Source of the DNA: Acidimicrobiia bacterium | GTDB lineage: Bacteria > Actinomycetota > Acidimicrobiia > Spongiisociales > UBA5794 | DNA length: 57,736 nt | Assembly (NCBI GenBank): GCA_036396535.1 | Contig: DASWKR010000022.1 | Span: 1-57,736, forward strand | Direction of reading: 5' to 3' | Shown here: in pieces, positions 3,919-55,440 of the stretch | Layout: every line of letters begins with the position of its first letter | Position numbering within the stretch: the first letter of the stretch is position 1 | Program-made: the position numbers and the translations under genes | The notes under the pieces: model-generated | Told to the model about the DNA's origin: nothing | Databases searched by the model: none | Seen by the model: the letters and a program-made list of their open reading frames with translations, nothing else

Positions 3919-4473
3919 TCACGGACTCTCCTGCAGCTCGGCGACGAAGTTGGCGAAGTCTTGCCAGTCCAAGATGTCGTGCGCGCCGGGCACGGGATCG
4001 TTCCACGATCGAACGAATCGGCAGACCGTCGCCTCGGGCCGCCTGGCGACGATCGCCGGGAGGTGAGCAGGGGAGTCCTCGAGGTAGACGTGGCACTCCA
4101 CCTCCCATTTGCGCCGAGTGATGTGGACTTCGCGCGTCGGGATGCGTTTGTCGCCGATCCAGGCGAACGTGTCCGGGATCGCCCAGCGAGGCTTGGTGGT
4201 GATGATGACGATCTGGTGGTCGAGGCTGAGCGACTCGAGCGTCTCGAGTGCGCCGGGGAAGGTGTCGAGGTTCCGGAAGATCGACGGCCGATCCGTTCCC
4301 CGAGCCCACGTCCAGAAATCGCCCGTGGACCCGAAATGGGTGAGCGAGTACAGGCCGTCCCACTCGATCACCTGGTGAGCCTCCAGCGCTGCCGAGAACT
4401 CGGCGTTGTAGAGCTTCATCCAGCCCGAGTTGAAGTCGGCCACGACTCCGTCGAGGTCGATGCCCAGCCTCAT
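3919..4473 (-). CDS. HAD-superfamily 5'(3')-deoxyribonucleotidase-like protein
   Basis: Small HAD phosphatase of 184 residues, about the size of the NT5C / 5'-nucleotidase group. Motif I is DLDGVVADFN (nucleophile Asp6, acid Asp8), motif II lies in IVIITTKP, and motif III/IV in HVYLEDSPAH. The members remove phosphate from nucleoside monophosphates or related small molecules; exact substrate unknown. It has its own TANNNT element 9 nt before the ATG and is separated by about 85 nt from phnD, so it may be transcribed with the phn genes, but no functional link is evident. Confidence 0.8.
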   Translation of the reverse strand: MRLGIDLDGVVADFNSGWMKLYNAEFSAALEAHQVIEWDGLYSLTHFGSTGDFWTWARGTDRPSIFRNLDTFPGALETLESLSLDHQIVIITTKPRWAIPDTFAWIGDKRIPTREVHITRRKWEVECHVYLEDSPAHLPAIVARRPEATVCRFVRSWNDPVPGAHDILDWQDFANFVAELQESP

Positions 4474-4482
4474 CGGTGGGTG

Positions 4483-4488
4483 AACCTA
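4483..4488 (-). promoter_or_regulatory. -10 element of HAD gene
   Basis: TAGGTT on the minus strand, 9 nt before the ATG at 4473; suggests a leaderless transcript. Confidence 0.5.
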
Positions 4489-4530
4489 GCGGTCTGTCGC
4501 GGGATTCATGACCACGCGCCGCGGTTGTCC

Positions 4531-5213
4531 CGGTTTGCGGCGTCGGCCACGCGGAGGTCCGGTCTGCCAAGCGGCCCCCTCGGCTCGGGTCGCAGGGCGA
4601 CTGCTCGCCCCTCCGCCGCGGAGCGGGAGACAGCGTGTGTGTGGCGGTCCTACGGTTCGCAGGCTTCTACGCAATCCCCCGGTTTCCGGGGGATCGACGA
4701 GCGCCGGAGGCCGAGTCGAGGGGGCCCTGCGGTCCGGTCTGCCAAGCGGCCCCCTCGGCTCGGGTCGCAGGGCGACCGCTCGCCGGTCCCCCGCCGAGCG
4801 GGAGACAGCGTGGATGGCCGTCCGTGCGGTTGGCGGGTGTCCCTCGGTTCGGTTTCTTACGCTCATCCCCCGGTTTCCGGGGGATCGACGAGCGCCGCAA
4901 GCCGAGTCGAGGGGGCCCGGCAGTGTGTGGCGGCCAGGTGCCCCCTCGGCTCGGGTCGCAGGGCGACCGCTCGCCGGTCCCCCGCCGAGCGGGAGACAGC
5001 GTGTGTGTGGCCGTCCGTACGGTTCGCAGGCCTCTACGCAATCCCCCGGTTTCCGGGGGATCGACGAGCGCCGCAGGCCGAGTCGAGGGGGTCCGGCAGT
5101 GTGTGGCGACCAGGTGCCCCCTCGGCTCGGGTCGCAGGGCGACCGCTCGCCGGTCCCCCGCGGAGCGGGAGACAGCGTTTGTGTGGCCGTCCCCGGTTTG
5201 CGGCGTCGGCCAC
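4531..5213. repeat. Tandem array of about 180-bp palindrome-rich units before dnaX
   Basis: Non-coding block. Near-identical unit starts (CCCCCTCGGCTCGGGTCGCA) are at 4575, 4750, 4941 and 5117, giving periods of 175, 191 and 176; the last unit is truncated. Each unit holds several palindromes: GGCGACCGCTCGCC, CCCGCCGAGCGGG, and ATCCCCCGGTTTCCGGGGGAT, plus a unit end (CCGAGTCGAGGGGG) that is the near reverse complement of the next unit start. The array is bounded by a direct repeat CGGTTTGCGGCGTCGGCCAC at 4531 and 5194. Long frames crossing it in several phases are by-products of the GC content and lack of stops. Could be a structured RNA, a DNA-binding array or a proliferating repeat family; function unknown. 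Confidence 0.85.
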
Positions 5214-5374
5214 CCGGCGGTCCAGAGCCGAGGTCACCAATTGGACGACAGACCACTAGTGGTTTCGGGCGATGCGTGACCGGCTCTCGAGGAGCTCGCC
5301 GGGGGTCGCAGGCGAGAGGACAGCTGGGGCTCGCTCGGTGGCGTCCTCTCTGCGGGCGCGTCACTGCCCGAGAG

Positions 5375-5380
5375 TACGAT
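5375..5380 (+). promoter_or_regulatory. -10 element of dnaX
   Basis: TACGAT 9 nt before the dnaX ATG, just after the repeat array; no ribosome site intervenes. Confidence 0.55.
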
Positions 5381-5389
5381 GAACGACCG

Positions 5390-7126
5390 ATGGACTACCA
5401 AGCGCTCTATCGCCGATACCGCCCGCAGCGATTCGGTGAGGTCGTCGGCCAGGATCACGTGACGGCGACCTTGCTTCGAGAGGTCGTCGAGGGCAAGGTG
5501 GCCCACGCCTACCTTTTCGCCGGGCCGCGCGGCACGGGTAAGACGACGACCGCCCGGCTTCTCGCCAAATCGCTCAACTGCACGAACCGGGGTGCAGATG
5601 GTGAGCCGTGCACCGAGTGCCCGTCGTGTGTCGGCATCGCCGAGGGCACGTCGCTCGACGTGATCGAGCTCGATGCGGCATCCCACAACAAGGTCGAGGA
5701 CATCCGTGAGATAAGGGTGAACGTCTCGACCGTCGCCGCAGCAGGCGGGGCGCGCCGGGTCTACATCCTCGACGAGGCGCACATGTTGTCGCGAGCGGCG
5801 GGCAACGCTCTCCTCAAGACCCTCGAGGAGCCGCCGGAACACGTCGTCTTCGTTCTGGCCACCACCGAGCCATACAAGTTGCTCGACACGATCCGCTCCC
5901 GCAGCCAGCGGTTCGACTTCCACCCGATGCCGTTCGAGGTGCTCGTCGACCACCTCGACGACGTCAGCGCCCGGGAAGGCTTCAACGTCGACGCAGAGGC
6001 GATGACCCTCGTCGCCAATCACGCAGCCGGCTCGATGCGGGACGCCCTCAGCCTCCTGGAGCAGGTGGCCGCCCTCGGCGAGGGCAAGGTTGCGGCGGCG
6101 ATGGTGTCACGAGCGCTCGGGCTGGCCGACAAGGACGCCTTCTCGACTCTGGCGTCGGCGATTCGCGACCAGGACGCCCCGGCTGCGCTCGGCCTGGTCG
6201 CCAAGCTCGCCTCGCAGGGTGCCGACCTGCGCCGCTTCGTATCCGAGTCCGTCGGGTTCTTCAGGGGCGTGTTCCTCGCCCAGTATTCGCCCAACCTGGA
6301 GGAGATCGCCGACGAGTCGCCGGACACGCTGGCGCTGTGGCGCGCCTTCGCCACCGAGCTGCAGGTGTCGGACGTTCTGCGGGCCGTCGACCAACTGTCC
6401 GAGGCGCTCCTCCACGTTCGCCAGGGCAGGGAGGAGCGGCTGGTCATCGAGTTGGCGATGTTGCGGCTGACTCGGCCCGAGACCGCCGTCGACGTCGAGT
6501 CGCTCCAGACGCGGCTCGGGCGCCTCGAGGCGAGAGTCCGGGAGCTGGCAGGCCAGGTGGTGAGTGGACCAAACGTCGCCCCTCGAGGGCACGAGCAGGC
6601 GGTCGAGCCTGAGTCCGTGGCGGCCGATGCCCCATTCGAGACGCCCGAGCCTGTCGTCGTTGCCGGCCATGACGGCGACGACGGGCCGCCGGGTGCCGCA
6701 TCGGGGGACGCCGATACGCTCGTCGACCTCGACCTGGGCACGCTCGGCGCGTCGTGGCCGGCGATCGTCGCCCGCGTTCGTGAGGTGGCCGGACCGTCGC
6801 GGCACGCATGGTTGAAGGAGGCCGTCCCCGCCGGCGTCGAAGCCGGCACGGTCACGTTCCACGTTCCCACCCACCTCCCGTTCCATCTGGAGCAGCTCCG
6901 GGAGGACCGCGGCCTGCACGAGGTGGTGTCGTCGGTCGCGATCGATGTGCTCGGCGGCGCCATCACTCTGGAGTTCGTGCCTGCGCCGCACGATGATCGA
7001 AAGCTCATGCCCGTTGCCGAGCCGGAGCGCGCCCCCGATCGAGACGACCTGCTCGAAGAGGGCAAGGGCGATGACCCGACCGAGCTTCTCGCCGACCTGC
7101 TCGGTGGCGAGATCGTCAGCGAGTGA
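5390..7126 (+). CDS. dnaX: DNA polymerase III subunit gamma/tau
   Basis: Clamp-loader ATPase of the replicase, 578 residues from this ATG. The frame is open far upstream through the repeat array, but the protein family begins at MDYQALYRRYRPQ. Seen: Walker A GPRGTGKTTTA (about residue 45), a zinc module with four cysteines (NCTN, PCTECPSC), Walker B LDEAHMLS (about 126), sensor 1 ATTEPYKL, SRSQRF arginine-finger region, and sensor 2 SMRDALSLLEQ. The C-terminal third is acidic and variable, as in tau subunits of actinobacteria. ybaB and recR follow, the conserved bacterial dnaX-ybaB-recR order. Confidence 0.97.
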   Translation: MDYQALYRRYRPQRFGEVVGQDHVTATLLREVVEGKVAHAYLFAGPRGTGKTTTARLLAKSLNCTNRGADGEPCTECPSCVGIAEGTSLDVIELDAASHNKVEDIREIRVNVSTVAAAGGARRVYILDEAHMLSRAAGNALLKTLEEPPEHVVFVLATTEPYKLLDTIRSRSQRFDFHPMPFEVLVDHLDDVSAREGFNVDAEAMTLVANHAAGSMRDALSLLEQVAALGEGKVAAAMVSRALGLADKDAFSTLASAIRDQDAPAALGLVAKLASQGADLRRFVSESVGFFRGVFLAQYSPNLEEIADESPDTLALWRAFATELQVSDVLRAVDQLSEALLHVRQGREERLVIELAMLRLTRPETAVDVESLQTRLGRLEARVRELAGQVVSGPNVAPRGHEQAVEPESVAADAPFETPEPVVVAGHDGDDGPPGAASGDADTLVDLDLGTLGASWPAIVARVREVAGPSRHAWLKEAVPAGVEAGTVTFHVPTHLPFHLEQLREDRGLHEVVSSVAIDVLGGAITLEFVPAPHDDRKLMPVAEPERAPDRDDLLEEGKGDDPTELLADLLGGEIVSE

Positions 7127-53349: not shown

Positions 53350-53422
53350 GCCCCCATCGTCTAGCGGTCCAGGACTCCGCCCTTTCAAGGCGGCAACGGG
53401 GATTCGAATTCCCCTGGGGGCA
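53350..53422 (+). tRNA. tRNA-Glu (TTC)
   Basis: Acceptor GCCCCCA/TGGGGGC, anticodon stem CCGCC/GGCGG with loop CTTTCAA (anticodon TTC), T arm ending TTCGAAT, discriminator A. CCA is not encoded. Confidence 0.95.
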
Positions 53423-53427
53423 CACGC

Positions 53428-53505
53428 GGGGGCGTGGTGAAGTCTGGAGTTCACGCCGGCCTGTCAAGCCGGAGGTCGCGGGTTCAAATCCCGTCGCTCC
53501 CGCCA
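53428..53505 (+). tRNA. tRNA-Asp (GTC)
   Basis: Acceptor GGGGGCG/CGCTCCC (one G-T pair), D arm GTGA/TCAC, anticodon stem CCGGC/GCCGG with loop CTGTCAA (anticodon GTC), T loop TTCAAAT, discriminator G and encoded CCA. Five nt after tRNA-Glu. Confidence 0.95.
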
Positions 53506-53580
53506 TGTGCTGTGGTTGCGACCGCCGTACGCGACGGTCGAGGCACGGCGCAGATCGCTGCCCGGGCTCGCTCGGGCCCT

Positions 53581-53656
53581 GGTCAGGTAGCTCAGTTGGT
53601 AGAGCGCCGGTCTGAAAAACCGGAGGTCGACGGATCGACGCCGTCCCTGACCACCA
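53581..53656 (+). tRNA. tRNA-Phe (GAA), integration target
   Basis: Acceptor GGTCAGG/CCTGACC, D arm GCTC/GAGC, anticodon stem CCGGT/ACCGG with loop CTGAAAA (anticodon GAA), T stem GACGG/CCGTC with loop ATCGACG, discriminator A and encoded CCA. The T loop begins with A rather than the near-universal T54. Its last 51 nt recur twice downstream, marking it as the attachment gene. Confidence 0.93.
53606..53656 (+). repeat. att copy 1 (inside tRNA-Phe)
   Basis: 3' part of tRNA-Phe from the anticodon stem to CCA; the 51-bp reference for the two downstream copies. The following non-coding 53657-53888 includes CTAGCTGCGT and CAGTTGGGTT, which reappear after copy 3. Confidence 0.85.
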
Positions 53657-53888: not shown

Positions 53889-54983
53889 CTACCGAGCAGC
53901 TGTCTTCAGATAGGCAACGAGTTCAGCCACCTTGTTGAGGGGAGTATGACCGCCGGGATACTCGTCCATCGTCACCTCGATTCCGGCTTCGGAGAGGCGG
54001 AGTTCGAGCAGTTGGCCAGCGTCGATGAACGTCACGGTTCCGTCGTCAAACTGATCGAGTCGTTCGAGATCACGTTGGATCGAGCCATCCGGGTCACGCA
54101 GGGCGAACCACCCAGACGGGTCTGACGGGTCATCGATTGCTCTGGGGCTCGTGCCATCATCGGCAACCCACAAGTGGAACTTGGCGTCGAGGTCTGTTGG
54201 CCAGGACGCCGGATCCATCAGTGCGGCGAGTTCCGCTTGCATTGCAGCGGGGTCGGCTTCAAACGCAGGGTCGAAGTTCTCCGAATGCAGCCAGTATTCG
54301 CCGTCGCCGAGGACAGCGCCGGTCACCGGTGCGGGTGGTGAGTCGGTCGAACATCCCGGTATCGGGTCCTCGTTTGCGTCCATGGACGCTGCCAGCCCTA
54401 CCCCCGCCCCTGCCGAGAACCCGTACACGATCGTGTTGGCAGGGTCGCCACCGAAATCAGGTGCGTTCTGCTGGGCGAACGCCACAGCACAGCTAGCTGC
54501 GTCCGTCCACTCGCGGAACGTCACGAGAGGGACCGGGACTGGCGGGATCGGTGGCCGCCAGACGATCCACGACGGGGCGAAGACGACTAGTCCTTCCGCT
54601 ACCGCAGCCTCTGCCAACGTGGCGGTGTCATCTCCGTCCTTCCCGTCTGAGTCAATGCCATGGAACGCAACCACGACGGGCCACGGTCCGTCGCCAACGG
54701 GCGTGTAGACATCCACCAAGAGCTCGGCATCACCGATCGTCATATAGACCAAGTCGGTTGTCTCAACAAAGCTCGGTTCTGCCGTCGTTGTGGTCGCTGC
54801 TGCTGCCGTCGTTGTGGTCGCTGCTGCTGCCGTCGTTGTGGTCGCTGCTGCTGCTGCCGTCGTTGTGGTCGCAGCTGGGATGGTTGTTGATGTCGAGTCC
54901 GAGGCGTTGCCACCGGAATCCGAGGAACACCCGACGGCGATCAATGAGAACGCGACAATCGGAATCGCAGTGAAACCGCGCAC
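53889..54983 (-). CDS. Lipoprotein alpha/beta hydrolase (esterase-like)
   Basis: 364 residues from GTG 54983 (AAAGGA six nt before), giving a clean lipoprotein signal with lipobox LIAVGC; a TTG at 55013 adds ten residues. Low-complexity TTTTAAAA linker (about residues 35-70) encoded by a DNA tandem repeat. Hydrolase domain: VVVAFHGIDSDGKDGDD (oxyanion), nucleophile GFSAGAGVG (Ser about 196), C-terminal YPGGHTPLN with His. Similar to dienelactone-hydrolase/PHB-depolymerase-type esterases. Located in element A; GC looks lower than the surroundings. Substrate unknown. Confidence 0.75.
   Translation of the reverse strand: MRGFTAIPIVAFSLIAVGCSSDSGGNASDSTSTTIPAATTTTAAAAATTTTAAAATTTTAAAATTTTAEPSFVETTDLVYMTIGDAELLVDVYTPVGDGPWPVVVAFHGIDSDGKDGDDTATLAEAAVAEGLVVFAPSWIVWRPPIPPVPVPLVTFREWTDAASCAVAFAQQNAPDFGGDPANTIVYGFSAGAGVGLAASMDANEDPIPGCSTDSPPAPVTGAVLGDGEYWLHSENFDPAFEADPAAMQAELAALMDPASWPTDLDAKFHLWVADDGTSPRAIDDPSDPSGWFALRDPDGSIQRDLERLDQFDDGTVTFIDAGQLLELRLSEAGIEVTMDEYPGGHTPLNKVAELVAYLKTAAR
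54781..54870 (-). repeat. Coding minisatellite in esterase gene
   Basis: Four copies of a 24- to 27-bp unit (plus-strand GCCGTCGTTGTGGTCGCTGC then GCTs) encoding TTTTAAAA on the minus strand. In-frame, so linker length can vary by slippage. Confidence 0.85.
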
Positions 54984-55389
54984 GACTGATCCTTTCGGCT
55001 TGTGCCGAGCCAACTGATCTGCGCTGGCTTCGGGCGCTCACTGTAGTTCGGTCTACGGCGATGGGTCGAGGGCCGCCGAGAACGAGTACCGGAAACCGCC
55101 CACATCCGGCAATCCCGGACACATCGATATCTCACCGAGAGTGGTGTGTGCGGCTGTGCGCTAGCGCTGCGGCCCTCTCCGCTTCGTAGCAACCTTCGAA
55201 TGCCGCGAGAACGCGGTCCGATGTCTTGGTCTGGGTCATGGCTCCCGATCAGTACTGCCGGCACCAAGGTTCCAACGGGCGTCACTCCAGATAAGGGTCC
55301 TGAGTCCGGGGAACGAAGGCGGGACAGCCGAAAGGACGGACTCCTCGCGGACTCGCCAACGCAACGCCCCAGGTCAGGTCAGCGAAACT
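54984..55389. other. Non-coding remainder of element A
   Basis: No convincing gene on either strand. The last part (from about 55363) has CAACGCCCCAGGTCAG ... GAAACTGCC, which is repeated before att copy 3, so it may be the element's attachment arm. Confidence 0.5.
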
Positions 55390-55440
55390 GCCGGTCTGAA
55401 AAGCCGGAGGTCGACGGATCGACGCCGTCCCTGACCACCA
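55390..55440 (+). repeat. att copy 2 (partial tRNA-Phe)
   Basis: 51 bp matching the tRNA-Phe 3' end with one difference (A to G in the anticodon stem 3' side, GAAAAGCC). The 5' half of a tRNA is missing, so it is not a working gene. Confidence 0.9.

Follow-up and report, generated by a model that had tools for sequence, protein, structure and literature searches.

What is the structured tandem array that lies immediately upstream of dnaX in this Acidimicrobiia bacterium, and does its place beside a replication gene carry any meaning? Going by the relatives of its dnaX, the organism is an uncultured member of Acidimicrobiia. In the window (the whole stretch of DNA that was analysed, 57,736 nucleotides), Tandem Repeats Finder delimits the array at 4574-5192, with a period of 176, 3.4 copies and a score of 866, and a repeat search finds copies spaced 175, 191 and 176 with an 18-nt core recurring at 4579, 4754, 4945 and 5121. 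A sequence-only reading of the locus had placed unit starts at 4575, 4750, 4941 and 5117, and both searches show that the array is real and these starts exact. It had also described units whose ends pair with the next unit start, with conserved stems and variable linkers, all bounded by a direct repeat. This description is correct: the repeat search shows many inverted pairs between unit ends and following starts, and the direct repeat is 32 nt long. The proposed 180-bp unit stands as a period and falls as a build, because each period consists of two inverted, diverged copies of about 60 nt (A on the plus strand, B on the minus strand) plus two spacers. Likewise, the repeat block had been recognised and drawn too narrowly: comparison with other copies shows that the common sequence runs from 4482 to 5270, with none beyond. 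We consider it likely that the feature is a non-autonomous IS630-type MITE inserted in CTAG/TA between the divergent NT5C and dnaX genes, with a BIME-like array as its interior, a reading whose basis (termini, copies elsewhere with unrelated flanks, A/B alternation, and covarying hairpins) was observed directly. The parts of the element and its neighbours are the following.

3919-4473, minus strand: NT5C-type 5'(3')-deoxyribonucleotidase, divergent neighbour (PF06941, E 5.5e-21), its start 12 bp from the element
4486-5259, no strand: whole MITE-like element, 774 bp, CTAG to CTAG, with sharp boundaries and other copies in unrelated flanks
4487-4517, plus strand: left terminal inverted repeat (TIR) TAGCGGTCTGTCGCGGGATTCATGACCACGC, IS630-like (24/31 to the L146 IS630 end), TA at 4487-4488
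4529-4560, plus strand: left subterminal direct repeat CCCGGTTTGCGGCGTCGGCCACGCGGAGGTCC, which other MITE copies share at their left ends
4575-4636, plus strand: unit A1, hairpin 2 degenerate, 53.5 bits
4669-4724, minus strand: unit B1, inverted, hairpin 1 short, 74.8 bits
4750-4811, plus strand: unit A2, 78.7 bits
4859-4915, minus strand: unit B2, after a variant linker 16 bp longer, 67.7 bits
4941-5002, plus strand: unit A3, 78.7 bits
5036-5091, minus strand: unit B3, 74.8 bits
5117-5178, plus strand: unit A4, 79.6 bits
5192-5223, plus strand: right subterminal direct repeat, 94% identical to 4529-4560
5228-5258, minus strand: right terminal inverted repeat TAGTGGTCTGTCGTCCAATTGGTGACCTCGG (minus strand), IS630-like (26/31), TA at 5257-5258
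5260-5389, no strand: leftover intergenic DNA from the element to dnaX
5390-7126, plus strand: dnaX, start codon 5390 by homology

The ends of the element, read inwards, are inverted (CTAGCGGTCTGTCGCGGGATTCATGACC... on the left, CTAGTGGTCTGTCGTCCAATTGGTGACC... on the right; the repeat search puts these termini at 4486-4516 and 5229-5259), and several observations associate them with IS630. First, a 31-nt probe, taken from an intact IS630 of a relative (L146) at its transposase-side end, was slid over both strands of the whole window with a cut-off of at least 21/31, and the only two places that reached it were the two element ends (24 and 26 of 31), which argues for an IS630-type MITE. Second, intact IS630 transposons of relatives in other genera (L144, L145, and L146) have TAGTGGTNNGTCG-like ends on both sides. 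Third, the end of contig C26 in the own genome encodes the C-terminal 45 residues of an IS630-type transposase and stops at TAGTGGTCCGTCGCGG. Fourth, the element shows TA within CTAG at either end, as most of its other copies do, which would fit the target of an IS630-type MITE and may or may not reflect a duplicated TA, given that CTAG stands on both sides. The statement that there was no obvious insertion sequence at this locus must therefore be withdrawn, since the ends are IS630-type TIRs, as in an IS-derived element. A full-length IS630 with such ends (TAGTGGTCYGTCGCGG) was not found in the draft genome, where the search returned transposase fragments only, at the C26 end and on C33. The C33 locus (L104 1-530), where an IS3-like OrfA start lies beside a cut-off C-terminal fragment of an IS630 transposase, is apparently a nest of broken insertion sequences. 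On C26 (L078 1490-1515), the gene upstream of the IS630 fragment takes its stop codon from the insertion, a TAG that lies within the IS end (CACTAGTGG).

The element has multiple sharp-ended copies in its own genome, with no transposase gene inside. There are 9 left and 10 right ends, each with unrelated flanks, and six copies, of about 405 to 774 bp, have both ends, several complete ones lying well inside contigs. The ends of the copies are 84-97% alike, a level that we do not take as a sign of recent mobility. IS630-derived MITEs are known, such as RUP of Streptococcus pneumoniae (with IS630-Spn1), which is 107 bp long, and Correia/NEMIS of Neisseria (PMC2229807, PMC2817692). The element resembles them in being non-coding and bounded by IS630-like TIRs with a terminal TA, and in having many intergenic copies. 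It differs from RUP in its length and in its interior, which here is an array, variable in number, of a separate structured repeat.

This interior consists of seven two-hairpin units of about 60 nt in the strict order A-B-A-B-A-B-A, where B is a diverged inverted A. In the A direction, the unit reads as an unpaired tag CCCCCT, hairpin 1, hairpin 2, and a tail NGCGT. In hairpin 1, CGRC...GYCG encloses an inner stem that varies, and a G is bulged; hairpin 2 is RTCCCCCG...CGGGGGAY or its CGGGAGAC variant. The inner stems are of four kinds (GTCGC/GCGAC, GTCCC/GGGAC, GGGC/GCCC, and GCC/GGC), the outer R-Y pair occurs in both types, and stems, outer pairs and the two types of hairpin 2 are combined in several of the ways possible. 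As RNA, the complete element folds much more stably than its shuffles on either strand (z -6.5 and -8.3), as expected of any inverted-repeat array; covariation among copies is stronger evidence. Folded as DNA, single units have only a weak advantage over their shuffles (z -0.65 to -3.1), so it is covariation that carries the structural argument. Covariation in the stems, whose modelling had been proposed as a check, shows that pairing is kept: 93.4% of cells are paired, and double changes number 68, where shuffles give 28±5 and all slid versions of the pairing at most 3, counted per sequence (cells) and not per event, in subfamilies that are mosaics of limited arm types. The pair counts cover the units of the own genome and of genus g10, those of g41 and g43 being left out because their MAFFT alignment was off the structural register. 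The kinds of stems and their covarying combinations point to selection or copying acting on the structure of the unit, beyond mere descent.

The unit is far more frequent than the element. At E<1e-3, a covariance model built from 40 distinct units identifies 123 of them across the genome of 3.1 Mb; they form about 41 clusters, spread over 29 contigs. Neighbouring units are inverted in 62 of 82 pairs (32 head-to-head and 30 tail-to-tail, against 20 in the same direction), and within MITE arrays the alternation is nearly strict, with the regular spacing that characterises BIMEs. The units are extragenic and show no bias towards gene ends (about 29 3' ends and 30 5' ends, with rough gene calls based on codon usage). 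Many arrays lie outside any such TIR (e.g. L043, L045, L049, and L051), including head-to-head pairs without MITE ends in L051. How the unit itself spread is thus not accounted for by the MITE, and another activity must have been responsible. Same-direction tandem arrays of single units are also found outside the MITE (L049 3090-3548, L058 2937-3154, L064 2695-3059, and L107 1013-1390), with periods of ~100 bp and ~120 bp, the latter type including a second motif (TGTCGGGCGCATGAACGTGAGCCGAGGGGCA). In some units, a nested palindromic module of about 65 nt (TTCACCCTGCTYGACC ... GGTCGAGCAGGGTGAAC) replaces the GCTCGYCG linker, which forms a second mosaic layer (L052 2980-3150, L062 1-520, L053, L061, and L066).

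The search for the unit was extended to relatives and revealed diverged families. At the DNA level, 59 relatives gave one weak 36-base match (L069) with no such unit around it. The R1 model gave one weak match among 246 relatives, in g10, and led to a diverged family there, with 27 DNA matches in G009 and 10 in G072, an unchanged plan and a hypervariable hairpin 1. This family provides an independent repeat of the covariation result (15 against 4.8±1.4 in shuffles), 6 of the 8 pairs of its unit being changed on both sides among just nine sequences. A model of the g10 form has members in 15 of 297 genomes, spanning nine genera in four families of this order of Acidimicrobiia; members outside g10 score 33-46 bits, and some of the weak ones may be chance. 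Direct reading of these loci gave, for example, ACCCCCCAC-CGACCGGGC-TGC-GCCCGGTCG-ACTCCCCC-ACAA-GGGGGGAGT and ACCCCCCA-CAATCGGCC-TGC-GGCCGATTG-ACTCCCC..., and in both the plan is kept and the arms differ. A loose pattern run over 395 genomes of the class is noisy, many of the listed matches looking like chance in coding DNA; the genomes that stand out against the control are G000 (100 vs 3), G015 (31 vs 2), and G077 (23 vs 2). Plasmid and phage records gave no match. Taken together, these distributions suggest that the unit is older and more widespread than the MITE.

Among the closest known systems are also the REP/BIMEs and REPINs, which are known together with RAYTs (PMC2817692, PMC3116915), and one may ask if the unit belongs to the true REP/BIMEs, the RAYT (a Y1 HUH transposase) that moved it being absent from the draft assembly or lost. 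The likeness, above all to BIME-2, is considerable: more than 100 extragenic copies, bulged imperfect palindromes, regular alternating spacing, and hybrid clusters whose arms covary through compensatory changes (PMC2817692, PMC3116915). Yet Y1_Tnp has no match in the own genome (96% complete) or in 20 relatives, in a search whose control matched, and several of these relatives carry related units. Furthermore, the unit has two hairpins instead of one, its unpaired C5-6 tag is CCCCC(C) and not GTAG, and its arrays ride inside a DDE-type MITE. We thus regard a RAYT-driven origin as unlikely. Because the two defining features, a cognate RAYT (21 genomes) and a GTAG/CGTC tag, are missing despite the matching arrangement, we describe the unit as BIME-like in its working and do not file it as a member. 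REPs with a CGTC tag are a further point of comparison: they too are short and palindromic, and no transposase dedicated to them is known. They have been described in five phyla, Actinobacteria not among them (PMC3733652), and differ from the unit, which has a double hairpin and no CGTC tag. A narrow literature search found no description of such repeats in Acidimicrobiia, and the element's repeat would thus belong to a structure-conserved family that we have not found described. Tentatively, and at somewhat less than even odds, the two-hairpin C-tagged unit may represent a family of mobile repeats in Acidimicrobiia that is undescribed and recognised by its structure: its arms would drift freely while the fold is kept, a non-RAYT enzyme would spread it, and some copies would be packaged in IS630 MITEs that carry ready-made BIME arrays to new sites.

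A different kind of explanation would see in the array a structured RNA that is transcribed, or a cis-regulator of dnaX or NT5C (an attenuator, a chain of terminators, or a 5' leader), kept for that role. It would account for the strong folds on both strands, the covarying hairpins, and the position between divergent genes, near both starts. It is hard to reconcile with the genes beside other copies, which are mutually unrelated (NT5C, argininosuccinate-lyase-type, MFS, GCV_T, PGA_cap, and others), or with about 41 clusters that lie equally near gene starts and gene ends in either orientation, also in relatives (26 3' ends vs 24 5' ends). In addition, five relatives (L081, L082, L084, L086, and L088) lack such an array over the 700 bases that precede dnaX, and the region 4400-5450 has no match to a sigma-70 promoter or terminator consensus. 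We therefore find this explanation very improbable: a conserved role at dnaX is unlikely, the link once drawn to dnaX as a replication gene is unsupported, and the placement beside it is probably chance, a selfish or neutral repeat being the simplest reading. The dnaX promoter and leader, if any, would most simply be placed in the leftover DNA at 5260-5389. That the array is no known RNA family, SRP RNA included, had been anticipated, and it has no Rfam 15 match at gathering score; extending the search to E up to 10 gave chance miRNA-like matches only, so an SRP RNA or a similar small RNA gene beside dnaX was rejected, and 20 loci of relatives matched only tRNAs. The CRISPR reading, already dismissed, fails on the repeat pattern, because the units are inverted and the linkers conserved among copies. 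Elsewhere in the window, an Rfam tRNA model matches 55372-55437 (plus strand, 38 bits, uncalled by ARAGORN), which may be a degenerate tRNA and has a group of Glu, Asp and Phe tRNAs nearby at 53350-53656, and a 24-bp unit occurs in 4 tandem copies at 54779-54877 (score 164).

Finally, a simple local duplication without wider meaning or an assembly artefact, which the ease with which tandem arrays arise and the concentration of units near contig ends might suggest, and which the sequence-only reading would have accepted had there been neither copies elsewhere nor covariation, is hardly credible, being refuted by the same units and element ends at many unrelated loci, by complete copies inside contigs, and by compensatory changes. 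The concentration itself is strong: for 60% of the units a contig end is no more than 1 kb away, where 6% would be expected (contig ends of G000: 24/188). Much of the fragmentation of this MAG is probably due to the repeat family, and because of this position in a draft MAG the units are probably under-counted and some arrays cut.

The IS630-type MITE with its BIME-like interior could have been produced by a small number of processes: 1) the ~60-nt unit would be a dispersed repeat of older date that persists, as REPs do, as a single-strand hairpin element defined by its structure; 2) some activity other than movement of the MITE would have spread it; 3) an IS630-family transposase (DDE type), acting in trans on the TIRs, would move the whole package; and 4) the number of A-B pairs would change by unequal recombination or replication slippage. 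A regulatory or replication role at dnaX is neither needed for this scheme nor supported. For annotators, the family is a warning: it breaks assemblies, and, because the MITE has no stop in the frame of dnaX, a false 872-aa ORF (a mechanical call, window 4508-7126, plus strand) runs through the element. REP/BIMEs are usually tied to Y1 transposases, whereas here a similar logic is found in several genera and families of one order in which no RAYT was found, with two hairpins whose arms are hypervariable and still covary, in a repeat that is also the cargo of an IS630 MITE. If confirmed, this would be a system for studying which activity copies hairpin repeats in place of a RAYT.
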